The notes under the pieces were generated by a model. That model did not search any database. It saw only the letters and a program-made list of their open reading frames with translations, and had not been told where the DNA came from. Shown here piece after piece: positions 1 to 11,863 of a stretch of DNA of 64,000 nucleotides. Position 1 is the first letter of the stretch; each line of letters starts with the position of its first letter. The position numbers were made by a program, and so were the translations under genes. Source of the stretch: Rheinheimera sp. MMS21-TC3 (lineage in GTDB: Bacteria; Pseudomonadota; Gammaproteobacteria; Enterobacterales; Alteromonadaceae). The stretch covers positions 1,302,001 through 1,366,000 of the forward strand of contig NZ_CP135084.1 in assembly GCF_032229285.1 (NCBI RefSeq), given 5' to 3'.

Positions 1-1
1 T

Positions 2-577
2 GTTAAGCACCAAGTTAAACTTAATGAGGGGTGGATATTATTAATTGAGCCATCAAGCATTTTAGGCTTGAGTTTAAAAAGGCTATTAGGTAGTTCTGGG
101 GTTATTTCAATTAATAATATGGTTAAACGCTATAGTGTGGCGGCTACACCTATTCTACAACCAATAGCTGAAATCTCACAGTTGTTTGAACAGCTAAATA
201 TTGATGTGAATTTTGCCGTAAATGACCAACAAATTACGGATAATCGTATCCAAAAGCTAATGGATAAATTAAATTTATGTTTATTGGATGAGTGTCAAAA
301 ACCTGCAAATTGGCGCGCGGCTAATGTGGCGGCCGAGCTTTATTTATCTGAAAGTCGTTTTTTGCATTTATTTAAGCAGCAATTAGGTGTTGCATGGCGT
401 CCCTATTTAAGATGGCGTCGTTTATCTTGTGCTTGTAATGCTATTGCTAAAGGCGCCTCTGTCACTGAAGCTGCTTATATTGCTGGTTTTTCTGATGGAC
501 CACACTTAAGTAAAACGTTTAATTCAATGTTTGGCCTAACAATTACTGACGCAAAAGCAATATTTTTTAAAGACTAG
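2..577 (+). CDS. AraC-family transcriptional regulator, 5' end cut by window edge
   Basis: The reading frame is open from base 2 to a TAG at 577, with no in-frame stop before the first possible start, so the gene begins outside the window. The C-terminal ~100 residues have the two-helix AraC/XylS DNA-binding pattern, including 'AAELYLSESRFLHLFKQQLG' and then 'EAAYIAGFSDGPHLSKTF', the second recognition helix region. The N-terminal ligand-sensing part is only partly present and has no recognisable effector signature. It lies directly upstream of, and on the same strand as, the acyl/sulfur biosynthetic cluster, with a 75-nt gap, so it is a plausible regulator of that cluster. That link is inferred from position only. 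Confidence 0.85.
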   Translation, partial: VKHQVKLNEGWILLIEPSSILGLSLKRLLGSSGVISINNMVKRYSVAATPILQPIAEISQLFEQLNIDVNFAVNDQQITDNRIQKLMDKLNLCLLDECQKPANWRAANVAAELYLSESRFLHLFKQQLGVAWRPYLRWRRLSCACNAIAKGASVTEAAYIAGFSDGPHLSKTFNSMFGLTITDAKAIFFKD

Positions 578-652
578 CTAGTTTATACATGTGAAAAATT
601 AACAAACCATTAAAATCACGGCATCTTTTGGTTGGCAAAATGGATGTTTTTA

Positions 653-1828
653 ATGGAATTACATAACGCATTAAAAAAAGCAGGACTAGATCCTGTTAAA
701 GTAGCATTATCGTCAGTTAAGCAATTATATGCTATGACTGAGTCACAACTGTTAGAGTTTAAATATTCGCTTATAGCAGATGCTTTTCAGTTTCATTATT
801 CAAATAATGCCTTCTATCGTTCAGCTTGTGAAGATAAACATATAACACCAGAGGTTATAAAATCAGCTGATGATCTAATTAAAATTCCACTCATTCCTAT
901 TAATTTATATAAAGCTAATGATAGCCATAAATTATTATCTAAAAGCTTAAAGAGCATTGAGCTTGAAATGCGTAGTACCGGTACTTCAGGTATCCCTAGT
1001 GTTTCACGTCGCTGTAGCGAAACAGTTGATAATGCTATTTTGGGTATTTATGCCATGTATCGGGAGTTCTTTGAGATATCTAAAGGCGCCGGTTTATATT
1101 TATGCCCATCTAATGAAGAAATTCCTGAAATGGGGATGATAAAAGCGCTAAATATGATGGCAGGGATGCTAGATACCCATCAGTTTATGGTTAAAAATGA
1201 AAGCTTTGCACCTGAAGATGCATTAGAGCAATTAGCTAGATGGGAAAATAAGTTTGATCGACACATTATTGGCCCACCATTTTTAATTAACCGCTTTATT
1301 CGTTACTTAAAAGCGACTAATAAAAAAATTAAACTAGACAAGAACACCTTAATTATCACTTTAGGTGGCTGGAAGCGCTTTAGCGGTGAAATGCTTTCTA
1401 GAAAAGAATTTAATGATGAATGTATAGAGTTCCTTGGTGTACAGCAGAATCAAATTCGTGACATTTATGCATTAGTTGAATCTAACGTTGTTGCTATCGA
1501 TGATGAGCACGGTGTTAAACATGTCTCTCCCTATATACACTTTTCTGTACGAGATCCTAAGCGTTTAGAACAAGAGGTTGCCATCGGTGAAGTGGGGCAA
1601 TTGGCTATTCTAGACCCATTATCTTGCTCAACCCCAGGATTTATTTTGACTGAAGACTTAGTGCGCTTGCTACCTAAAAAGCAAGGTGACCTTCGCAGTG
1701 GTCAGCGTGTTGAATATGTTATGAGATTACCTGAATCTTTAGAGTTTGGCTGTTGTGCAGTAAATCTTGATAAACAACTTGATGATACTGAAGAGCTCCA
1801 TACAGAAACTTGTCCTGTTATCGCTTAA
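653..1828 (+). CDS. LuxE-like acyl-protein synthetase (PaaK/LuxE adenylating family)
   Basis: A 391-residue protein of the LuxE family. These enzymes activate a carboxylic acid with ATP and pass the acyl group to an enzyme thiol or carrier. The phosphate-binding loop STGTSG is at about residues 108-113, and the LuxE-typical LGGWK segment is at about 237-241. ATG 653 is chosen because it follows a GGA at suitable spacing; an in-frame ATG 644 and TTG 632 are alternatives. The usual partner, a LuxC-type fatty acyl reductase, is absent from the visible cluster, so an aldehyde product is not implied. It is the first gene of the cluster, 55 nt before the IscU-like gene. Its substrate is unknown. 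Confidence 0.8.
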   Translation: MELHNALKKAGLDPVKVALSSVKQLYAMTESQLLEFKYSLIADAFQFHYSNNAFYRSACEDKHITPEVIKSADDLIKIPLIPINLYKANDSHKLLSKSLKSIELEMRSTGTSGIPSVSRRCSETVDNAILGIYAMYREFFEISKGAGLYLCPSNEEIPEMGMIKALNMMAGMLDTHQFMVKNESFAPEDALEQLARWENKFDRHIIGPPFLINRFIRYLKATNKKIKLDKNTLIITLGGWKRFSGEMLSRKEFNDECIEFLGVQQNQIRDIYALVESNVVAIDDEHGVKHVSPYIHFSVRDPKRLEQEVAIGEVGQLAILDPLSCSTPGFILTEDLVRLLPKKQGDLRSGQRVEYVMRLPESLEFGCCAVNLDKQLDDTEELHTETCPVIA

Positions 1829-1883
1829 GTTTTAAATGTTTCTTGTATAAGCACCTAAATTTACATTTAAATCCAGGTGCTTA

Positions 1884-2276
1884 ATGAAAAAAGATATAGG
1901 TACCTTAATGTACAACGATATTATTATTAAGAACTTTACTGAACCACATAATGTAGGTGATTTAGAAAGTGCAGACTATGAAATAGAGATTGGTAATCCG
2001 GTTTGTGGTGACCGAATTAAAGTGCAATTGCTTGTAACTGATAAGGTTATAAATAAAGCAGTGTTTAGGGCTTGGGGCTGTGCCACTTCAGTAGCAACTG
2101 CAAATATCTTTTGCAGTTCAATTGCTGGCGAAGCGTATGACAATATTTCTCAGCGACAGCCTTTAGAAATAGGGCAAATGCTTGGAGAGCTAGAGCCATC
2201 ACAACAACATTGTGTAGAAATATTAGTAGAGCTACATCAAAAGTTAGCTGACACCATCAGTAGCGGAGTTGTGTAA
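1884..2276 (+). CDS. IscU/NifU-like iron-sulfur (or sulfur) scaffold protein
   Basis: A 130-residue protein matching the IscU fold family. The three conserved cysteines are present: C41 in GNPVCGD (with D43), C66 in WGCATS and C110 in QHCVEIL. The spacing is like that of E. coli IscU (37, 63, 106). The second motif is degenerate, with GCATSVA where housekeeping proteins have GCGSAIA. AGGTG precedes ATG 1884 at good spacing. The gene overlaps no neighbour but ends only 1 nt before the cysteine desulfurase start, so the two are surely co-translated. No IscA, HscA, HscB or ferredoxin gene accompanies it, so this is not a housekeeping isc operon. It may assemble a cluster for one pathway or relay sulfur. 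Confidence 0.85.
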   Translation: MKKDIGTLMYNDIIIKNFTEPHNVGDLESADYEIEIGNPVCGDRIKVQLLVTDKVINKAVFRAWGCATSVATANIFCSSIAGEAYDNISQRQPLEIGQMLGELEPSQQHCVEILVELHQKLADTISSGVV

Positions 2277-2277
2277 G

Positions 2278-3462
2278 ATGGATCAGCAACATATTTCTGG
2301 TTATTTTGACTATAACGCAACTACACCAATTTCTGATGAAGTTGCGCAATCTATGATCCCTGTACTTACACAGTTTGCAAATCCTTCAAGTAGTAATAGT
2401 TACTCAATATTATGTAAAAGTGCAATTGTTGAAGCTAGAGAGCAAATTGCAAGATTAATTAATACTAAAAAAGAAAAAGTGTTTTTTACATCTGGCGGCT
2501 CTGAAGCAAATAACTGGGCAATTAAAGGCGTATTACTGCAGCATATAAAAAAACCAGGGCATATTATTACTACTGCTATCGAGCATGCCTCCGTGCTGGA
2601 TACCATTAGGTATTGTGTAGAAAGCTTTGGCTTTGAGGTTACTTATTTAAAACCAGACGAACAGGGAGTCATTAGGCTCAAAGACTTTCAAGATGCACTT
2701 AGAGCAGACACTCAACTTATAAGCATCATGTACGCCAATAATGAGACCGGCGTAATACAACCGATTGAAATTATATCTAGATTAGCTAAAGAAAAAAATA
2801 TTCCACTCCATGTTGATGCAGTACAAGTGATCGGTAAACGAAAAGTTGATGTAGAAAGTTTAAACATAAACTACCTGTCTATTTCGGCTCATAAGTTTTA
2901 TGGGCCTAAAGGTGTAGGTTGTTTATATATAAAAGATGTTAATAGCATAGGGCCATTAATTCACGGTGGTGGTCAAGAGCAATCTATGCGGTCTGGCACA
3001 GAAAACCTTGTTGCTCTAGTAGGAATGTCTAAAGCGGCTCAAGAGGCATCACTAAATGTAGCACAGTGGGATAAAGATAATTGGCAGTGTAAGCAGCATA
3101 TGATCAATTTACTTAAGTTGGCGCCAATAGAGATTAAATTTAATGGCCATATTGGTTTTGCCGCTGCGTTATCAAATACCTTAAATATCTCAATAAAAGG
3201 GGTAAGAGGGGAGGCATTAGCTGCTCGAATGGAAATGCTACACAATTATATTTTTTCAATAGGATCAGCGTGTAGTAACAATAAAACTAAAAAATCATCA
3301 CATGTTTTACAGGCAATGAGCATGCAGGAAGAGGATATACAAAACTCAATTAGAATTAGTTTTGGTCGTTTTACCTCAATCCAAGCAGTAGAAAAGTTTA
3401 TAGAAACTTTGATTATAGAAGCCCAAAAATTATTAATTATAAGTGGGAGTCGTCATGGTTAA
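2278..3462 (+). CDS. cysteine desulfurase (IscS/NifS family, PLP enzyme)
   Basis: A 394-residue class-V aminotransferase-fold enzyme that removes sulfur from cysteine as an enzyme persulfide. Visible landmarks are SGGSEAN (PLP phosphate region), His103 in IEHAS, HVDAVQ (PLP-binding Asp), the Schiff-base lysine at about residue 206 in SAHKFYGPKG, and the persulfide cysteine at about 332 in GSACSN. ATG 2278 is preferred over an in-frame TTG at 2269 because GGAG lies about 10 nt upstream. It follows the IscU-like gene immediately and overlaps the acyl-AMP ligase by 8 nt, tying sulfur mobilisation to acyl activation. The family call is secure; the sulfur acceptor is inferred to belong to this cluster. 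Confidence 0.93.
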   Translation: MDQQHISGYFDYNATTPISDEVAQSMIPVLTQFANPSSSNSYSILCKSAIVEAREQIARLINTKKEKVFFTSGGSEANNWAIKGVLLQHIKKPGHIITTAIEHASVLDTIRYCVESFGFEVTYLKPDEQGVIRLKDFQDALRADTQLISIMYANNETGVIQPIEIISRLAKEKNIPLHVDAVQVIGKRKVDVESLNINYLSISAHKFYGPKGVGCLYIKDVNSIGPLIHGGGQEQSMRSGTENLVALVGMSKAAQEASLNVAQWDKDNWQCKQHMINLLKLAPIEIKFNGHIGFAAALSNTLNISIKGVRGEALAARMEMLHNYIFSIGSACSNNKTKKSSHVLQAMSMQEEDIQNSIRISFGRFTSIQAVEKFIETLIIEAQKLLIISGSRHG

Positions 3463-5137
3463 CAGCAAAGGTAAATATGTCTTATTAATGGATGCAATTA
3501 AAGACTATGCTAATAACCAGCCGGAACATACCGCTTGTGTTTTTCAAACTAGAGGTATTGAAACAGCTAAAAAATTAACTTATCAAGAGTTGATTTTAGC
3601 CGTTAACACTAGAGCCAAGTTATTAATTTATTTAGGTTATCAGCATAAATCAGTAGCTTTACTTTATCCTACCGGACTTGATTTTGTTATCAACTTTCTT
3701 GCTTGTTTATTAGCAGGGGTTATAGCTGTTCCGCTTAATGTTACCCGTAATGCTAAGCAGTTAGAGCGAACAATTAACATAATTGAAGATGCAAATGTTC
3801 AAGCGATACTAACAACAGAAGATACTAAAATCATGCTATCTGAGCAGTTAGCAGAATTACTGCTAGCAGATTCGTATGCTGTGGCTTGGATAACTGAAAA
3901 CACTGCTGGTAATGATAATGTTAGCTTGCCAAATATTAAGCCAAGCAGTCTTGCCTTTATTCAATATACATCTGGCTCAACAAGTAACCCTAAAGGGGTG
4001 ATGGTTAGCCACGATAATGTTGTCAATAACATGGAAGCCATTAAGCAAGCTTGTAGCAATAAGCATGGGGTAGTTATAGGAGGTTGGTTACCACAATTTC
4101 ATGATATGGGATTGGTAGGCCATATGTTGCATCCCTTGTATATGGGCGGCACTTATATCTTTATGCCACCTATGAACTTTATACAGCGGCCTAGTCGCTG
4201 GTTGCACTTAATATCGCACTATAAGATAGAGTGTTCAGCATCACCTAACTTTGGCTTTGAACATTGTGTTAATTTAATAAGTGATAAAGAAGATTTATCA
4301 GACTTAGATTTAAGCTGTTGGAGAGTTGCTTTAAATGGCTCTGAACCTGTAAGCGAAACAACTATGTCTGCTTTTGCTGAAAAGTTTGCAGCCTATGGCT
4401 TTAATGCAAATTCATTTTTTCCTACCTATGGCATGGCAGAAACGACTCTCTTTGTATCAGGAGGGCCACATAGTCGTGGTGTTTCAACAGTAACATTAGA
4501 TAAAGAACCGTTTACTCAAGGCAAGATTATAGACGCTGAAACCGGCATAGATATTGTTAATTGTGGTGCTATTGCCGCAAGTTTAACGGTAAAAATTGTT
4601 AATCCTGAAACATTAGTTAGCTGCAATGATAATACTATTGGTGAAATCTGGGTATCCGGAAGTTCAGTAGCAAAAGGCTATCTAAACAACCCAATAAAAA
4701 ACCAGTCAGACTTTAATGCGCAGGTTATTCCGGCTGATGGTAAACGTTATTTACGAACTGGTGATTTAGGCTTTATTAAGTCAGGAATGCTTTATGTAAC
4801 AGGCAGAATTAAAGAATTATTAATTGTTCGAGGTAGGAATTTATATCCTTATGATATTGAACGGACTTGTAATAGTTATCAATTTTCTTCAGGTGGTAAC
4901 GGTAGTTCAGTATTTACTTATCAGCAAGATAATAAAATAAAATTAGCTGCGATTATAGAAATAAAAAAGCGGGCTTTGGCAACAGAAGATCATGTTCAAA
5001 TATCAAATGATATTAAATCTTTAGTATTTATGCAGCATGAAATTGCATTTGATAAATTGTTGCTGGTAAAACCTGGCACCATTCCTAAAACGACTAGTGG
5101 CAAAATTAAGCGTTCAGCTTGTATAGATCTTATTTAA
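3455..5137 (+). CDS. fatty acyl-AMP ligase (FAAL)
   Basis: A 560-residue adenylate-forming enzyme. The ATP loop YTSGSTSNPKGV lies at about residues 171-182. The FAAL-type motif 'LPQFHDMGLVG', the 'YGMAETTL' motif and the C-terminal 'LRTGDLGF' and 'GRNLYPYDIE' motifs are all present. FAALs differ from acyl-CoA ligases in transferring the acyl adenylate to a carrier protein, here very likely the ACP encoded next. ATG 3455 has GGGAG five bases upstream and overlaps the end of the desulfurase gene. The chain length of the fatty acid cannot be read from sequence. Confidence 0.93.
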   Translation: MVNSKGKYVLLMDAIKDYANNQPEHTACVFQTRGIETAKKLTYQELILAVNTRAKLLIYLGYQHKSVALLYPTGLDFVINFLACLLAGVIAVPLNVTRNAKQLERTINIIEDANVQAILTTEDTKIMLSEQLAELLLADSYAVAWITENTAGNDNVSLPNIKPSSLAFIQYTSGSTSNPKGVMVSHDNVVNNMEAIKQACSNKHGVVIGGWLPQFHDMGLVGHMLHPLYMGGTYIFMPPMNFIQRPSRWLHLISHYKIECSASPNFGFEHCVNLISDKEDLSDLDLSCWRVALNGSEPVSETTMSAFAEKFAAYGFNANSFFPTYGMAETTLFVSGGPHSRGVSTVTLDKEPFTQGKIIDAETGIDIVNCGAIAASLTVKIVNPETLVSCNDNTIGEIWVSGSSVAKGYLNNPIKNQSDFNAQVIPADGKRYLRTGDLGFIKSGMLYVTGRIKELLIVRGRNLYPYDIERTCNSYQFSSGGNGSSVFTYQQDNKIKLAAIIEIKKRALATEDHVQISNDIKSLVFMQHEIAFDKLLLVKPGTIPKTTSGKIKRSACIDLI

Positions 5138-5159
5138 ATAATGTAATTAAGGATAGTTT

Positions 5160-5432
5160 ATGAATAATATATTTTGTAAAGACACACTAATATCTAAAAT
5201 TGCAGAATACGTAGCGGAAAGAGTCGACGGATTTTCTAAAGACCTGCATATAGATACTTCATTTTCACGGTTAGGCTTGGATTCAGCAGCTCATGTGCAG
5301 TTGACGGCTGTTATTGAAGATTACTTGCAAACCGATGTATCACCTACTTTAGCATTTGATTACCCAACAATTAATGCCTTAGTTAATTATTTGGTTAATG
5401 AATCACAGAATAATATTAATAAGGCCTCTTAA
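5160..5432 (+). CDS. acyl carrier protein of the acyl/sulfur cluster
   Basis: A 90-residue carrier protein. Ser42 in LGLDSAAHVQL is the phosphopantetheine attachment site, and the following helix is typical of PKS/NRPS-type carriers associated with FAALs ('LAFDYPTINALV'). AAGGA precedes ATG 5160. It is only 22 nt after the FAAL gene and 4 nt before the monooxygenase start. It probably holds the acyl chain while later enzymes act on it. The EntD-like phosphopantetheinyl transferase at the cluster's end would activate it. Confidence 0.93.
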   Translation: MNNIFCKDTLISKIAEYVAERVDGFSKDLHIDTSFSRLGLDSAAHVQLTAVIEDYLQTDVSPTLAFDYPTINALVNYLVNESQNNINKAS

Positions 5433-5436
5433 TATA

Positions 5437-6507
5437 ATGCAAATATTTGATGCTGTTATTATCGGTGCTGGCCAATGTGGTTTGTATACGGCTAAAAAGT
5501 TACAAGATGATAATAAACATTATGTCGTATTAGAGCGACATGCTGTAGGACAGGTTTGGCTGCGACGTCTGGAAGGGATGCGTTTATTTACCTCTCGTCA
5601 ATTTAGTCAATTACCTGGCTTAACCTTTACAGGAGATGGCAATGGTTTCCCTGATGTAAAAGAAATGGCTAATTATTTGAAAGCATATGCGGCAAAATTT
5701 AAGCTGAATATTCGGGAAAACGCAGAAGTTGAAACTCTGACTAAAGTTGACGGTAAATTTTTAATAACCTTGCAAGGTGGCCAAGAAATACAGGCTAAAA
5801 CAGTTATTAATGCAACAGGTTCTAACCAAGTACCTATTGTACCAGAAATGAGTAAGTCATTATCTGAACACATTATCCAGTATACAGCCGATATAACATC
5901 ATTAAATACAATAATAGATAATAGCCGTGTAGTGGTCGTTGGAGATGGTGCCACCGGCCGGCAAATTGCCGCTAGGTTAGCGAATAGGTGTCAAGTAGTC
6001 TTGGCTACTGGTTCGAGTAGAGGCTTACCGCCTAATACTATTCTGGGTAAAGATATATTTTGGTGGTTAAAAAAGATTGGTATTTTAGATGCTAGCAATA
6101 CTAGTTTAGTCGCAAAAATATTAAAGAAAAGAAACCCTGTTCCCTGTGCCGAGTTTAATAATACAAAACTAAAAAAACTAGGCGTTACAATTAAGCCAAG
6201 AGCAATAAACTGCGATAAAGATACTATTATTTTTAAAGATGGTGAGATTGAAAATGTCGATATTGTAATTTGGGCGGTGGGATATAAAGATGAAACTAGT
6301 TGGCTAAAAATTTACAGCTGTTTTAATAAAGATGGTTTTATTCATGATAAAGGAGTGACGCCAGAGCCAGGTTTGTTTGTTATTGGCCGCAAATGGTTGA
6401 GTAGTCGTGGTTCTGAGTTGATATTGGGTGTGGAAAAAGATGTTAACTCTTTGATGTTAGATTTTTATGATTTTGAAAATAAAAATTTAGATAAGGTGAA
6501 GTCATGA
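5437..6507 (+). CDS. flavin-dependent monooxygenase / FAD-NAD(P)-binding oxidoreductase
   Basis: A 356-residue class B flavin monooxygenase-like protein. The FAD fingerprint GAGQCG is at residues 10-15, a second Rossmann motif GDGATG for NAD(P)H is at about 169-174, and NATGSN precedes it. It is shorter than typical N- or S-oxygenating FMOs (~450 residues). ATG 5437 follows the ACP stop by 4 nt; a longer in-frame start at 5398 would overlap the ACP gene and lacks a Shine-Dalgarno sequence. Its stop overlaps the exporter start as ATGA. It may oxygenate a heteroatom (N or S) of the carrier-bound product; that is inference from the family and context. Confidence 0.85.
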   Translation: MQIFDAVIIGAGQCGLYTAKKLQDDNKHYVVLERHAVGQVWLRRLEGMRLFTSRQFSQLPGLTFTGDGNGFPDVKEMANYLKAYAAKFKLNIRENAEVETLTKVDGKFLITLQGGQEIQAKTVINATGSNQVPIVPEMSKSLSEHIIQYTADITSLNTIIDNSRVVVVGDGATGRQIAARLANRCQVVLATGSSRGLPPNTILGKDIFWWLKKIGILDASNTSLVAKILKKRNPVPCAEFNNTKLKKLGVTIKPRAINCDKDTIIFKDGEIENVDIVIWAVGYKDETSWLKIYSCFNKDGFIHDKGVTPEPGLFVIGRKWLSSRGSELILGVEKDVNSLMLDFYDFENKNLDKVKS

Positions 6508-8837
6508 ATAATACCTTTATGTATAAACTATTAAATTCAAAATTTAATATTTGGTTACTTTCCTTAACGCTATTGTTTACGGTGGTATCTATTGTTGGCT
6601 TGAAAGATATTGGTTTAGCTAGTGATTATAAAATTTTCTTTGATCAAGATGATAAAGACTTAAAGATATTAGAGACTATGGAAAGTCGATATAGTACTAC
6701 TGATAATGTTTTTATTATGATTAAAGCTAAAGAAAATAGTATTTATAATACTAATACGATTAAATTGATTTATGATCTTAGCCAAGCTTTATGGCAAGTG
6801 CAGCATGTCAGCCGAGTGGATTCATTAACAAATTTCCCTTATAGCCGAGCAGATGGTGATGATATTGTTATTGAGGAGTTTGTGTATGAAGCTGAGCAAA
6901 TTACTCCAGACTATGTACAACAAGTAAAGCTTGCTGCAGAAAAGGAACGGGATCTTGTTGGTAGTTTAATAAGTGCAGATGGTCAATATAGTGCAATTAA
7001 TATTACTACCCTTTTACCTGGGGATGACCATAAGTTAGAAACATTAGCCGTAAGCGCTGGTATTGATCAGCTAGTAGAGAAGTTTAGGTTAACTCACCCT
7101 GAGCATGAGTTTTATGTAACGGGTTTAGTCGCAATGAATAGTGCATTCTTTGTAGCAGCTAAGAGCGACTTTACAACATTAATCCCGTTAATGATTGTAT
7201 TTGTTTTAATTGCTGCTGGTATCATATTAGGCTCTATCCAAGCTGCGTTTTGTATATTAACAGTTTTGCTATTATCTATGTTAGGGGCATTAGGTTTAGC
7301 CGGTTGGTTTGGAATAAACTTATCTGCACCTTCTATATCTGCACCTATTATTATGTTCACAGTAATAGTTGCATCTAGCATTCATATTATAAGTTATGTT
7401 AAACGCCAACTGATGAAAGGTGATTCTCAGTTACAAGCCGTTCTATCTTCATATAAACATAATACTAAACCAGTAATAGTCAGTCATTTAACTACTATTA
7501 TTGGATTTTTAGCAATGAATGCGAGTGACTCTCCACCATTTAGAGATTTGGGTAATATTGTCGCTTTTGGTGTTATGTTTTCATTGTTACTGTCTTTTAC
7601 AGTAACGCCTACATTACTTTTAAAAGTAAAGTTGTCTAATAAAGAAAGTTACTCGGTAAAAGTATTTCAAAATATGCACTGGCTTTCTAGTTTTGTAATA
7701 TCAAGAAAAAAGCAGATACTTTATATCGTAGTACCTTTAACATTAATATTTTCTGGATTGAGTTTTTTAAATAAAGGTAATGATGATTTAATTAAATACT
7801 TTAATGAGTCTGTACCTTTTAGATTTGAATCAGAAGTTATAGATGAGCAATTTTCAGCTTTGTATAATATTGGTTACTCTTTAGATAGTGGCCAAGCAAG
7901 TGGAGTATTTTTAGTAGAGTTCCTTGAATTTACTGAAAAGTTTGATAATTGGTTGATGCAGCAACCTGAGGTTATGATTACCAATAGTCCTTTGCATAGA
8001 ATAAAGCAACTCAATCGATTAATGAATAATGATGATCCTAATTTTTATATTATACCTAGCAGTCCCACTATGGCTGCGCAACACTTTTTGTTATATGAGA
8101 TGTCGCTACCTTTTGGTAAAGATGTAGGAGATATGCTTAGTTTTGATAAGTCTGCATTAAAGCTTACCGCTAGATTACGTAATAGTAGCTCTGTAGAAAT
8201 GATTAAGTTTGAACAAAAAGTTGTAAGTTGGATAGATAACAATAAACCAAACTTTATTAACTATACTTATTCAAGCCCTTCTTTGATTTTTGCTCATATA
8301 GGCCAAACAAATATTTTAAGTTTACTAAAAGGAGCTTTTTTAGCCTTTATTGTTATCTCAATAGCTTTATCTTTTGTTTTTAGATCATTTTATATTGGAG
8401 TATTAACTTTAATACCTAACTTGCTACCTGTCGGTATGGCTTTTGGCTTTTGGTACTTTATTCAAGGTGAAATATCTATGGGATTAGCTGGTGTTTCTGC
8501 AATGGCAATAGGGATTATTGTAGATGATACTGTCCATTTTTTATATCAATATATTAATGGTTTAAAGAAAGGGTTAACGCCAGAAGAAAGTGTTAAATAC
8601 ACTTTTGATCGAACCATGGGGGCAATAGTTATTAGTTCTATATTATTGGTTATAGGTTTTTTATTGCTGTCTTCTTCTTCATTCGAAAAGAATGCACAAA
8701 TGGGATTGTTAACCAGCGGTACAATAGTTTTAGCCTTATTATTTGATTTAGTTGTGTTGCCAGTATTGGCAATGCGCTTTATTCGTAATGTTCCATCACA
8801 TTCAACAGAGAATAAGCTTAGGAGTGAAACGATATGA
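6504..8837 (+). CDS. MMPL/RND-family exporter (COG1033 type)
   Basis: A 777-residue inner-membrane protein with the RND/MMPL layout: one N-terminal membrane segment (about residues 13-33), a large periplasmic loop, a block of membrane helices at about 225-375, a second periplasmic loop, and a last block after about residue 610. The second block contains 'GIIVDDTVHF', the acidic proton-relay segment common in this family. MMPL-type proteins export lipids and hydrophobic molecules. The gene is coupled by 4-nt overlaps both upstream and to the LolA-like gene, so it is probably the transporter for the cluster product. It is unrelated in sequence type to the AcrB-like pump at 12.4-16.6 kb. Confidence 0.88.
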   Translation: MNNTFMYKLLNSKFNIWLLSLTLLFTVVSIVGLKDIGLASDYKIFFDQDDKDLKILETMESRYSTTDNVFIMIKAKENSIYNTNTIKLIYDLSQALWQVQHVSRVDSLTNFPYSRADGDDIVIEEFVYEAEQITPDYVQQVKLAAEKERDLVGSLISADGQYSAINITTLLPGDDHKLETLAVSAGIDQLVEKFRLTHPEHEFYVTGLVAMNSAFFVAAKSDFTTLIPLMIVFVLIAAGIILGSIQAAFCILTVLLLSMLGALGLAGWFGINLSAPSISAPIIMFTVIVASSIHIISYVKRQLMKGDSQLQAVLSSYKHNTKPVIVSHLTTIIGFLAMNASDSPPFRDLGNIVAFGVMFSLLLSFTVTPTLLLKVKLSNKESYSVKVFQNMHWLSSFVISRKKQILYIVVPLTLIFSGLSFLNKGNDDLIKYFNESVPFRFESEVIDEQFSALYNIGYSLDSGQASGVFLVEFLEFTEKFDNWLMQQPEVMITNSPLHRIKQLNRLMNNDDPNFYIIPSSPTMAAQHFLLYEMSLPFGKDVGDMLSFDKSALKLTARLRNSSSVEMIKFEQKVVSWIDNNKPNFINYTYSSPSLIFAHIGQTNILSLLKGAFLAFIVISIALSFVFRSFYIGVLTLIPNLLPVGMAFGFWYFIQGEISMGLAGVSAMAIGIIVDDTVHFLYQYINGLKKGLTPEESVKYTFDRTMGAIVISSILLVIGFLLLSSSSFEKNAQMGLLTSGTIVLALLFDLVVLPVLAMRFIRNVPSHSTENKLRSETI

Positions 8838-9646
8838 AATTAAAGAATATGTTGTTAGCATTATTTATTGTTACGCTTAGTTTGGTTTCAAACTTTACTA
8901 ATGCTGAAAATATAGCAGCAAAAAAGGGTTATGATATAGCCTTAACTCTTGAGAATAGGGATAACGGCTTTAAAGATAGCAGTGCCAAATTAACTATGAG
9001 ATTAAAAAATGGACTGGGCGCTGAGGCGCTTAGAGAGCTGGACATAAAAATATTAGAAGACTCTGACGAGGGAAATAAAACACTTATCATATTTGATTTT
9101 CCAGTGGATATAAAAGGAACTTCACTATTAACACATCCTAAAAAGGCGCGTTCAGATGACCAGTGGTTATATTTACCCGTTGTAAATCGTACTAAGCGTA
9201 TTTCTTCAAGAAATAAATCGGGTTCATTTATGGGAAGTGAATTTTCATTTGAAGATATGATTAGTAAGGATGTGGATGATTTTAATTATAATTTTATTAG
9301 TACTGAACCTTGCAATAATTTAGAAGGTGTTGCTAGCGAATTTCAATGTGATGTTATTGAAAAGTTTCCTCTTGATAAACACTCTGGCTATAGCAAACAA
9401 AAACTATGGATTGAGCAAGATAGTAATAAGGTTTATAGAATTGAATACTATGATCGTAAAAAATCATTACTGAAAGTTTTAACTGCCAGTAATTTTAAAC
9501 TATATCTTGATAAATATTGGCGCGCTAATGTAGTTAATATGCACAATGTTCAAACTGATAAAGTAACGGTTTTAGAATACAACTCAATATCATTCTCTTC
9601 TGGATTAAATGATAATGATTTCCATCGTAGTGTTCTGGGAGATTAA
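8834..9646 (+). CDS. LolA-like outer-membrane lipoprotein-sorting protein
   Basis: A 270-residue secreted protein with a Sec signal peptide (about residues 1-24, cleaved near FTNA-EN). The body resembles the LolA-like 'outer membrane lipoprotein-sorting protein' family often encoded beside COG1033-type RND proteins, e.g. 'YLPVVNRTKRISS' and 'GSEFSFEDM'. LolA-fold proteins shield lipid chains across the periplasm. It starts within the exporter stop codon (ATGA). Inference: it carries the hydrophobic product from the RND protein toward the outer membrane. Confidence 0.8.
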   Translation: MKLKNMLLALFIVTLSLVSNFTNAENIAAKKGYDIALTLENRDNGFKDSSAKLTMRLKNGLGAEALRELDIKILEDSDEGNKTLIIFDFPVDIKGTSLLTHPKKARSDDQWLYLPVVNRTKRISSRNKSGSFMGSEFSFEDMISKDVDDFNYNFISTEPCNNLEGVASEFQCDVIEKFPLDKHSGYSKQKLWIEQDSNKVYRIEYYDRKKSLLKVLTASNFKLYLDKYWRANVVNMHNVQTDKVTVLEYNSISFSSGLNDNDFHRSVLGD

Positions 9647-9678
9647 GGTTGTTCTCACTGGTATTATTAAGAAATGTT

Positions 9679-10857
9679 ATGCTTAAATCGCGTTACATGT
9701 TTCTATTTATGGCATTAGTTTTATTAAGCATTAAAGCTAATGCCGATACTATATTTGATTTTATTGATTTAGATTTAGCTACAACAAGTAGATACTACTA
9801 TGTGGCGGCTGAGGGTGATTCAAATAATAAATATAGTAAAGGGTTTAAGGCAGAAGCAAAATTTAATTATAAGTATGAAAATATAAGGTTTAACGGTTTG
9901 GCTTTTACTAATTGGGATAGCACTGATGACTCTCGGAGTTATTCTAATATTAGACAAGCAAATATTTATGTTAACAATAATATTTTTACTTTTGGTTTAG
10001 GTGTTGATACTTTCTTTTGGGGAGTGTCTGAATCTATTAATGTGGTAAATGTATTAAATCAATCCGATATTATGGAAAGCCTTGACGGTAAAGTTAAATA
10101 TGGCCAAACCTTTGTTTCTATTAATACTCGATTTTCTAATGGTGATTTTAGCTTTTATTATTTGCCTTTGTTTCAAGAGCAAAGCTTTCCTGAGCGGCCA
10201 TCCTATGGCTTGGCAATATCTAAAAATGCAGTATTTGAACATGATAAAAAGAGAGGTGGAATTGCTGCTCGAGGTTTATTTTATTTTGACCGCCTAGAGT
10301 TTGCTTTATCCTATTTTAAGGGAACTAGACGTAGTGCTTTATTGGCCCGTCATGCAACGGAAATGGCAGTATTAACACCATATTATATCCAAACTGTGAA
10401 CTATCTTGTTGACGGTGTATATATAGCAGAAGACTTTACCCTTAAGTTTGAAGCTAAAACGGGGCTAGAACAAAACGCTGGTTTTACGACTTTTAATTTA
10501 GGCATAGAGTACCCCAGTTATGCATTTTCAAAACTGGTTGAAGAAGTTATTTTTATTGCAGAATATGCGTTTGATGATAGAAAGTTAAGCGCAGAAACAC
10601 ATGGCCAAAATGATATTTTTTTAGGGGGTAAGTTTAACTTTGGCTACAGCGAGCAAGGTAATGTGCGCTTTTTATATAGTTATGATTTTGACTATCGTAG
10701 TCAGTATGCAGAGTTAAGTTATGAATACAGGCTCAATGACTATTTTAGGTTTAAAGCCAAGGCACTCAAAGTTTTATCGGCACCAGAACGAGACCAACGT
10801 TTATATGCACTTTCAGGTGAAGAATTTATTAACTTGAGTTTGCATTATGCTTTTTAA
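9679..10857 (+). CDS. putative outer-membrane beta-barrel protein of the export module
   Basis: A 392-residue protein with a signal peptide (MLKSRYMFLFMALVLL..., cleaved near KANA-DT) and a body of alternating aromatic/polar strands ending in an aromatic residue (LSLHYAF), as in outer-membrane barrels. It resembles the DUF1302-like proteins that travel with RND plus LolA-like genes; I am not certain of the exact family. ATG 9679 gives a clean signal peptide; an upstream in-frame TTG at 9649 would spoil it and has its AAGG directly abutting. It sits after the LolA-like gene as the likely outer-membrane endpoint of export. Confidence 0.7.
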   Translation: MLKSRYMFLFMALVLLSIKANADTIFDFIDLDLATTSRYYYVAAEGDSNNKYSKGFKAEAKFNYKYENIRFNGLAFTNWDSTDDSRSYSNIRQANIYVNNNIFTFGLGVDTFFWGVSESINVVNVLNQSDIMESLDGKVKYGQTFVSINTRFSNGDFSFYYLPLFQEQSFPERPSYGLAISKNAVFEHDKKRGGIAARGLFYFDRLEFALSYFKGTRRSALLARHATEMAVLTPYYIQTVNYLVDGVYIAEDFTLKFEAKTGLEQNAGFTTFNLGIEYPSYAFSKLVEEVIFIAEYAFDDRKLSAETHGQNDIFLGGKFNFGYSEQGNVRFLYSYDFDYRSQYAELSYEYRLNDYFRFKAKALKVLSAPERDQRLYALSGEEFINLSLHYAF

Positions 10858-10891
10858 TGTATGTTATGTTTAGAGCTAACCGTTTTATGAG

Positions 10892-11575
10892 TTGGAATTG
10901 ATTGCTTTACCTAGTTTTCAAGAAATAATTTCGCATAGAGTTGAGTTAAGTATCATTCATGATCTTAACTATCAAAAAAAACTACTCGGTCATAATCTTT
11001 ATTTACCTAAGCAAATGCAGTCTCTGCTTTTAAAGCGTAAATGTGAATTTTTAGCTGGAAGATGGTGTGCAGTTAAAGCTATGCAACTATTAGGAGTACA
11101 GGGAGTCAGCCAGCCTTTAATAGGCAAATATAATGAACCAGTCTGGCCAAAAGGGGTAATGGGGAGTATTAGCCATACCCATAGAACAGCCGTTGCAATT
11201 ACAATACATACTCATTCCCAGATCCAAGGGATAGGTATAGATCGCGAAAAACTAATTAATATAGCTATGGCAAACCGGTTTGCCAATAAAATACTTTCTG
11301 CAAAAGAGCAGACCTTGGGTTGTGCGTTTTTTAATTTTGAGTTATTTGTTACTATTGGTTTTTCCTGCAAAGAAGCATTGTTTAAAGCCATATTTCCACA
11401 GATCCTGCGAGTTGTTAATTTTGACGTTGCTCAGATCACTCAGATAAATTTAAAAGATAAAATGGTTGAGTTAACTATAAAACAAAATTTGAGTGAAAAT
11501 TTATATATAGGACGAAAAGTCCAAGCCTTTTACCAAGAGTTTTCAGGCGCAATAGAATCTTATGTAATTGTTTAA
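10892..11575 (+). CDS. 4'-phosphopantetheinyl transferase, EntD type
   Basis: A 227-residue transferase that moves phosphopantetheine from CoA to a carrier-protein serine. Diagnostic motifs are GSISHTH (residues 91-97), GIGIDRE with the magnesium-binding Asp/Glu (113-119) and FSCKEALFK (157-165). It uses TTG 10892; the next in-frame ATG would remove the N-terminal third. It is 34 nt after the outer-membrane protein and on the same strand. It closes the cluster and presumably activates the ACP at 5160-5432, since PKS/NRPS-like carriers are poorly modified by AcpS. Confidence 0.92.
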   Translation: MELIALPSFQEIISHRVELSIIHDLNYQKKLLGHNLYLPKQMQSLLLKRKCEFLAGRWCAVKAMQLLGVQGVSQPLIGKYNEPVWPKGVMGSISHTHRTAVAITIHTHSQIQGIGIDREKLINIAMANRFANKILSAKEQTLGCAFFNFELFVTIGFSCKEALFKAIFPQILRVVNFDVAQITQINLKDKMVELTIKQNLSENLYIGRKVQAFYQEFSGAIESYVIV

Positions 11576-11863
11576 AGTTTATGTCTATAACTGGCGTCTG
11601 TAGGGTATACATAACAGCAACTACACCTTTTGGTGAGCTCAGAATGGCAATAGCGCCGCCAGTTTTCCTAGGCGTTAGCGCAAGGTAACCCTTTGAACAA
11701 TGTAGCGAGGTGATTATATGGCTCTAATCCGTTGATGTTTTTTTACGGTTTCAAAGATGCTGAACTCGGAGAAAGAGCAGTTGCAGAAGGTAGAAAAACA
11801 GGCCGCTTAAAATGGTCAGTGGTGATAACTAACTTGAAAACACTGAGCTTTTAGCTGTATAAA
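11576..11863. other. non-coding gap after the acyl/sulfur cluster
   Basis: About 290 bases separate the cluster from the convergent DUF3087 gene. The stretch contains one short frame (11735-11854, 39 codons, ATG) with no recognisable family; I do not count it as a gene. No clear intrinsic terminator is visible. It marks the transition from the A+T-rich cluster to DNA of more balanced composition. Confidence 0.5.

Follow-up and report, generated by a model that had tools for sequence, protein, structure and literature searches.

We analysed a 64,000-nt stretch of Rheinheimera sp. MMS21-TC3 (contig NZ_CP135084.1, positions 1,302,001 to 1,366,000; hereafter the window, with positions counted from its first letter), in which positions 653-11575 are occupied by ten genes, all on the + strand according to the open reading frame (ORF) coordinates. 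The initial annotation had described them as tightly packed same-strand genes, and the coordinates bear this out: LuxE and IscU are separated by 55 nt, IscU and IscS by 1 nt, and the last two genes by 34 nt, and there are 4-nt overlaps at the FMO-MMPL and MMPL-LolA junctions. The genes encode, in order, a LuxE-like acyl-activating or acyltransferase enzyme of 391 aa (653-1828), an IscU/NifU_N-like protein (1884-2276; Pfam NifU_N; conserved start at M9, about position 1908), a cysteine desulfurase of the IscS/NifS type (2278-3462; Aminotran_5), a fatty acyl-AMP ligase (FAAL; 3455-5137; AMP-binding; GTG 3443 or ATG 3455 as possible start), an acyl carrier protein (ACP; 5160-5432; PP-binding) and a flavin-dependent monooxygenase (FMO; 5437-6507; Pyr_redox_3). 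These are followed by a HAE3-like MMPL/RND transporter (6504-8837; MMPL), a LolA_like protein (8834-9646; LolA_like at 188 bits and DUF1329 at 39 bits), a putative outer-membrane protein of 402 aa (9649-10857) and an EntD-like 4'-phosphopantetheinyl transferase (PPTase; 10892-11575; 4PPT_N and ACPS, with NCBIfam EntD at 96 bits, below the cut-off of 169). Pfam places nine of the ten in the families first assigned to them; the 402-aa protein has no Pfam match, and its putative label is taken only from its neighbours and from its positional counterpart in locus L053, which matches DUF1302.

The initial annotation had proposed a search for the same gene order across genomes. The LuxE protein had 438 relatives at E ≤ 0.001, the listing covering the best 120, and a profile of 20 LuxE relatives, scanned against genome contigs, gave 37 loci. 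LuxE, IscU, IscS, FAAL, ACP and FMO were found in the same order and on the same strand in 32 of these 37 loci, which span marine gammaproteobacteria, Pseudomonas, Cellvibrio, Lysobacter, betaproteobacteria, Actibacterium (an alphaproteobacterium), Xenorhabdus and three cyanobacteria; some of the 32 are near relatives, eight of them being Xenorhabdus. This conservation of six genes exceeds chance. Among the 32, the FMO frame of a Colwellia metagenome-assembled genome covers residues 3-208 only, with its stop 55 nt short of the contig end. In Calothrix sp. PCC 7716 (L043, 11637-14931), also among the 32, inserted ORFs split the IscS frame, and that copy of the cluster is probably inactive.

The incomplete loci are of several kinds. 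Photobacterium lipolyticum (L054, 10001-19182) has the cluster without the FMO only, and no such FMO was found elsewhere in the genome sequence searched; the FMO is therefore dispensable in one lineage, and this locus is a natural variant for the un-oxygenated product. One Lysobacter contig stops just past FAAL. A Desulfococcus contig starts within LuxE and carries LuxE-IscU-IscS followed by opposite-strand genes, with no FAAL in the remaining 1.9 kb, and a Granulosicoccaceae locus consists of a shortened LuxE abutting a transposase gene, then the contig end. The Halalkalibacter locus reads FMO-ACP-LuxE-IscU-IscS, without a FAAL match within the locus; its flanks hold an ORF resembling GRDB and a gene of the U32-peptidase family (L067, 7908-8411 and 12744-13709). 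In PLSDB, 34 plasmid records match LuxE, of which 14 are from Priestia (LuxE identity about 49%; a gene for a phosphopantetheine-binding protein lies beside it) and the other 20 are distant. The one Priestia record read in detail, a Priestia megaterium plasmid (L118; NZ_CP058264.1, 10435-17263), has the order CMD-FAAL-FMO-ACP-LuxE-IscU-IscS-DinB_2. Because the same six parts occur there in a different order, they appear to be a functional set. The CMD (AhpD-like) and DinB_2 genes at its flanks belong to families that include thiol-linked members, and they may serve for self-protection.

Over 34 loci, the pairwise divergences of the six proteins correlated with r of 0.86-0.97, and for each of the 15 pairs none of 300 permutations gave a value as high, which suggests that the six have largely one common history. 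As a control, about 1.5 kb on each side of 26 distant-LuxE loci was inspected; IscU or IscS was beside none of them and weak FAAL-like matches were beside three, although a control with such short flanks is weak by itself.

The LuxE-like label is correct at the level of the family, but the protein is not the LuxE of bioluminescence: it scores 131.1 bits against Pfam LuxE (PF04443; gathering score, 24.9) and only 150.4 bits against the equivalog model for bioluminescence LuxE (NF052244), the cut-off of which is 550. It aligns over residues 33-368 with the homologous bioluminescence LuxE of PDB 7xc6 (2.4e-32), from which it differs by a second cysteine, a C-terminal tail and the lack of lux neighbours. 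The GCS of 7xc6 aligns with G366-C367-C368, so that Ser stands where the cluster LuxE has C368; the 7xc6 cysteine aligned to C367 is presumably the acyl-carrying one. The GCC motif was found in 38 of 39 cluster LuxE rows, the exception being a shortened row, and each letter of RSTGTSG is likewise kept in 38 of the 39, the exception starting after the motif. A C-terminal tail CP[VIL]xx, in the form CPVIA with C387 in the window, is present in 35 of the 39 rows; the shortened row is one that lacks it. These features were compared with 54 LuxE-like rows obtained as by-catch of the genome searches. Nine of the 54 are Xenorhabdus members of the cluster clade, and all nine have both GCC and the tail; neither was found in any of the remaining 45 (43 distinct).

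The desulfurase retains the PLP lysine K209 and the loop cysteine C335 (numbering from 2269) in 38 of 38 rows. It reaches neither the NifS nor the IscS equivalog cut-off (NifS, 369 bits against 531), and it has no C-terminal extension of the kind present in the other IscS of the genome. In the IscU-like protein, C41, D43, C66, H109 and C110 are kept in all 38 rows, which is the ligand set of the NifU_N/IscU superfamily, and an extra cysteine, C77, is present in 37 of the 38; the score against TIGR01999 is only 58.4 bits (cut-off, 192.4). The LPPVK motif is changed to L-x-P-x-Q (LEPSQ in the window), with P105 in 38 and Q107 in 37 of the 38 rows. The genome carries a second adjacent iscS-iscU pair, 39% and 31% identical to the cluster IscS and IscU, respectively, in which IscU keeps LPPVK and has Thr at the C77 position; this pair would be the housekeeping one.

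For the ligase, the fatty-acid--AMP ligase model NF004509 gave 416 bits and the CoA-ligase model NF004837 gave 163 bits, neither reaching its cut-off, and the PDB matches include 3pbk (Fatty Acyl-Adenylate Ligase), FadD23 and FadD32; both kinds of match favour a FAAL over a CoA ligase. The ACP has G39, L40, D41 and the serine S42 (GLDS) each in 35 of 35 rows. The nearest PDB entries to the FMO are 4usr, 4usq, 4c5o and 4a9w, and it has a Pfam Lys_Orn_oxgnase match at 33 bits. Two fusions, an ACP-FMO protein of 456 aa on a 7.5-kb contig (P0193) and a FAAL-ACP protein in L062, show that these enzymes are coupled to the carrier. FMO relatives with 45% identity occur in Photorhabdus bodei and P. 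luminescens subsp. mexicana (P0212, P0217).

The genes beyond the first six vary. Separate MMPL, LolA_like and outer-membrane protein genes were found in ten of the 37 loci, in addition to the window and a related genome (G051); MMPL and LolA are joined in a single ORF in nine loci by blastp (confirmed by Pfam in L053), and two loci have MMPL only within the fetched stretch. In the eight Xenorhabdus loci an HlyD/MFS pair (families F10 and F11; Pfam for L063 only) adjoins the core, and in Calothrix PCC 7103 HlyD and ABC genes follow it. Since the exporters are swapped between clades, the six genes look like the biosynthetic core. A PPTase closes the operon in the window and in G051, and one of a different type is present in Marinobacterium and Microbulbifer; many fetched stretches end shortly after the core, so that these data do not decide on a PPTase there. 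The initial claim of a single unit is supported, as activation by the FAAL, a carrier in the ACP, sulfur supply from an IscS/IscU pair distinct from the second pair, and export are all encoded in it, but the conserved core is six genes, and the export genes and PPTase differ by clade. Apart from the core, AraC and MMPL/LolA/OMP families, no gene family was common to more than eight loci, and those at eight are clade-bound exporter parts, which argues that there is no further enzyme general to the pathway. A transglutaminase-like gene (F18) adjoins the core in four loci of betaproteobacteria, Cellvibrio and an alphaproteobacterium (L047, L050, L051 and L057; Pfam in L050 and L057). Next after the FMO, all three cyanobacterial loci (L068, 16013-16540; L039; L043) encode a protein of one family, which carries a polyketide-cyclase/lipid-transport domain (Pfam for L068 only).

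Which genes are present, how well they are conserved, that their catalytic residues are kept and that the exporters can be exchanged were all observed; from this we infer every chemical step of the following pathway. The FAAL would adenylate a fatty acid and load it on the cluster ACP, made holo by a PPTase. The LuxE-like protein, which comes from a family of adenylate-forming enzymes with an acyl-Cys intermediate and seems the conserved enzyme best suited to hand on an acyl group, would receive the acyl group from the ACP, or adenylate it itself, onto its GCC cysteines. The dedicated IscS would form a persulfide with the sulfur of cysteine. The IscU-like protein, in which the chaperone motif of Isc is missing, would relay this sulfur, in most clades perhaps to the Cys-Pro tail of LuxE; the GCC site and the tail would be natural candidates for the acyl and persulfide carriers. 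Attack of the sulfur on the acyl group and reduction would free a fatty thiocarboxylic acid (RCOSH), which the FMO would oxygenate, most likely at sulfur, to an acylsulfenic acid or a related compound, perhaps in the vicinity of the ACP. Export of the product would then fall to the RND, LolA-like and outer-membrane proteins. Sulfur transfer onto activated carboxylates is established in thiamin, molybdopterin and thioacid biosynthesis, and by this analogy a fatty thiocarboxylic acid would be the simplest sum of the parts. We favour oxygenation at sulfur, since none of the genes general to the loci handles amines. In the sulfenicin pathway a flavin-dependent S-hydroxylase reportedly converts a thiocarboxylic acid into an acylsulfenic acid, the compound being a polyketide synthase (PKS)/nonribosomal peptide synthetase (NRPS) product of Streptomyces; this would be a precedent for the step. 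The initial annotation had also assumed an oxygenation by the flavoprotein; the step would not be universal, as P. lipolyticum lacks the enzyme. We put at roughly 0.5 the probability of this pathway, in which a fatty acyl compound bearing sulfur would be made by way of a thiocarboxylic acid, usually S-oxygenated by the FMO, and then exported.

Several points weigh against this pathway. The complete ligand set means that IscU could still assemble Fe-S clusters. Neither C77 of IscU nor the Cys-Pro tail of LuxE is essential: Halalkalibacter (the exception among the 38 rows) and Priestia have no C77, and Actibacterium, Halalkalibacter, Desulfococcus and Priestia have no tail. If a single acyl group is activated, having both a FAAL and LuxE would be redundant unless LuxE is an acyltransferase. 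The nearest NCBIfam models of the FMO, MSMEG_0569 and ArsO (both far below cut-off), do not indicate sulfur, and the ACP-FMO fusion would fit equally well a pathway without a thiocarboxylic acid, where the FMO acts on a chain attached to the ACP. Furthermore, families confined to one genus, many of them in Xenorhabdus and Shewanella, are only partly annotated, and clade-specific tailoring enzymes may be missed.

The intact IscU ligands are also what one would expect if IscS and IscU were an auxiliary Fe-S supply only, serving a cluster that exports a plain acyl product to the outer membrane, and helper genes can sit in operons. However, by Pfam the six core families include no Fe-S enzyme, the two genes are as conserved in place as LuxE and still adjoin it on the Priestia plasmid despite the rearrangement of the others, the chaperone motif of IscU is lost, and the genome already has another iscSU pair; we consider this explanation unlikely. 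Slightly less probable again is that the sulfur enters the alkyl chain on the ACP, as in lipoate, and not the carboxyl end, by means of an Fe-S cluster built on IscU, with the FMO then giving a sulfoxide or thiosulfinate. The usual Fe-S pairing of IscS with IscU, the complete ligand set, and the ACP-FMO fusion, which suggests action on a carrier-bound chain, agree with it, but no radical SAM or similar enzyme was found among the cross-clade families (the clade-only families being partly annotated), and LuxE would be left without a clear job.

The product might also contain nitrogen. Hydroxylation of nitrogen is common among FMOs of this broad class, and with the Lys_Orn_oxgnase match in mind the desulfurase and an N-hydroxylating FMO might turn the acyl chain into a thioamide, thiohydroxamate or isothiocyanate. 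The cross-clade families include no gene for amine activation or amide formation to go with such a product, which we hold to be improbable. The isothiocyanate cluster of paulomycin does include a cysteine desulfurase, but it has a ThiF/MoeZ-like protein with a SufS-like desulfurase (PMC4425429). Least probable of all is that LuxE and FAAL activate two different acids that are joined through sulfur as a diacyl disulfide or a thioester-linked lipid: both acyl-activating enzymes do occur together in 32 of 32 complete loci, but the window cluster has a single carrier protein and lacks a condensing enzyme, and nothing supports the joining directly.

The thiocarboxylic acid pathway can be compared with the PtmA3/PtmU4 cassette of thioplatensimycin, which has relatives in the PDTC, thioquinolobactin and yatakemycin clusters. 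The cassette activates a carboxylic acid and exchanges one of its oxygens for sulfur from the sulfur-carrier machinery of the cell, as the window cluster would, but it relies on an acyl-CoA synthetase together with a type III CoA-transferase and sulfur-carrier proteins (PMC6006322), in place of which the window has FAAL/ACP, LuxE, IscU and IscS. A known thioacid cassette was rejected, as no CoA-transferase, of type III or otherwise, is among the ten genes. No Pfam ThiS match was found among the ten either, with little space between them (other regions of the genome were outside this search). The same two families form the IscS-IscU core of ISC assembly, with catalytic and ligand residues conserved; a duplicated isc operon was nevertheless rejected, as no chaperone or ferredoxin gene is among the ten and LPPVK is lost; further differences are the additional Cys77 and the fixed partners FAAL, ACP, LuxE and usually FMO. 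An ordinary lux or PaaK locus was discarded for the absence of lux neighbours among the ten genes and a score far under the LuxE cut-off, and an aryl polyene, PKS or FAAL-type PKS/NRPS cluster for the absence of ketosynthase or condensation domains among them. The paulomycin cluster likewise combines a cysteine desulfurase with an acyl-CoA synthase, an ACP and a PPTase, but its sulfur relay is of the ThiF/MoeZ-like type and LuxE does not occur in the text of the paper (PMC4425429); a paulomycin-like isothiocyanate cluster was rejected for this difference in relay. Photoxenobactin, a thiocarboxylic acid of Xenorhabdus, was set aside as a PKS/NRPS product, and the text of a survey (PMC9177418) contains neither 'desulfurase' nor 'LuxE'.

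The exporter resembles the AmeABCD type of Castellaniella, in which a HAE3 RND protein goes with two others, one of the LolA superfamily (DUF1329) and the other an outer-membrane protein with DUF1302 (PMC6394551). Here the RND protein scores 146.6 bits against TIGR00921 (cut-off, 351.9), the LolA_like match is above its threshold, and the outer-membrane protein has no match, DUF1302 being found in its L053 counterpart. In contrast to AmeABCD, no AmeC-like gene was noticed among the ten, and the exporter is tied to a biosynthetic core, with MMPL and LolA fused in nine loci.

The gene families are all known, but the combination is not, as far as the literature was searched. The initial annotation knew of no described pathway with such a set, and none turned up: combinations of LuxE, FAAL and desulfurase gave no cluster of the same composition in the open-licence PMC literature searched, which is no proof of novelty. 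In the portions available of a 2025 FAAL review (PMC11837247), the terms desulfurase, LuxE, sulfur, thioacid, thiocarboxyl and IscS are absent, and no entry in its table of FAAL products was recognised as a thiocarboxylic acid. We tentatively suggest a second independent natural route to thiocarboxylic acids, in which a Cys-Cys LuxE would act as thiocarboxylate synthase and IscS/IscU, diverted from Fe-S assembly, as a small-molecule sulfur relay, so that proteobacteria, cyanobacteria and bacilli would make fatty acylsulfenic acids or redox-active lipids related to them; we consider this somewhat less probable than the pathway itself. If true, a class of biosynthetic gene clusters beyond PKS/NRPS logic has been overlooked in at least three phyla, an additional route to sulfur-bearing lipids exists, and an Fe-S scaffold protein has been recruited as a small-molecule sulfur carrier. 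The six genes would then form a testable family with sequenced hosts in Pseudoalteromonas ostreae, Shewanella kaireitica, Xenorhabdus, Calothrix and Priestia and with a natural FMO-less variant.

The surroundings of the cluster were also inspected. The 3' part of an AraC-type regulator gene (1-577, + strand; Pfam HTH_18) precedes it; the full ORF (L029, 11811-12578) encodes 255 aa, starts about 190 nt upstream of the window and ends at 577, and the AraC family is found in 18 loci, the window included. Translations read by eye suggest a small cytochrome-like gene and apparent heptose-synthesis genes upstream of it. A promoter scan gave fewer hits than shuffled sequence (32 against a mean of 50.6), and a terminator scan was at the shuffled level (7 against 6.8). 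GC content is 34.5% in positions 1-11600, compared with 41.4% in the 11.6 kb upstream and 41.9% in the remaining window.

This drop in GC, together with the plasmid copies, the LuxE identity of 73-74% between the window and cyanobacteria, and the placements in the LuxE tree, reads as horizontal spread. In the tree, the two Photobacterium species are placed in separate clades, and the cyanobacteria form a group with marine gammaproteobacteria (support 100/99); Halalkalibacter, Desulfococcus, Granulosicoccaceae and Oceanospirillaceae have long branches, and Halalkalibacter and Desulfococcus may have been joined wrongly. At E ≤ 1e-60, LuxE was found in 3 of the 369 genomes that sample the class, window genome included, and in 1 of 398 genomes of the Bacilli-class sample, which is the query's own. 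At E ≤ 0.001, 26 of 147 relatives' genomes had a match, but the cluster clade was found only in the window genome and G051, the other 24 being distant LuxE-like proteins. Among 79 relatives of Xenorhabdus, nine have a full-length LuxE, counting the genome of the query itself. A Xenorhabdus relative has a 49-residue LuxE match with 59% identity (G165:C1:131804-131950), perhaps the remnant of a lost cluster.

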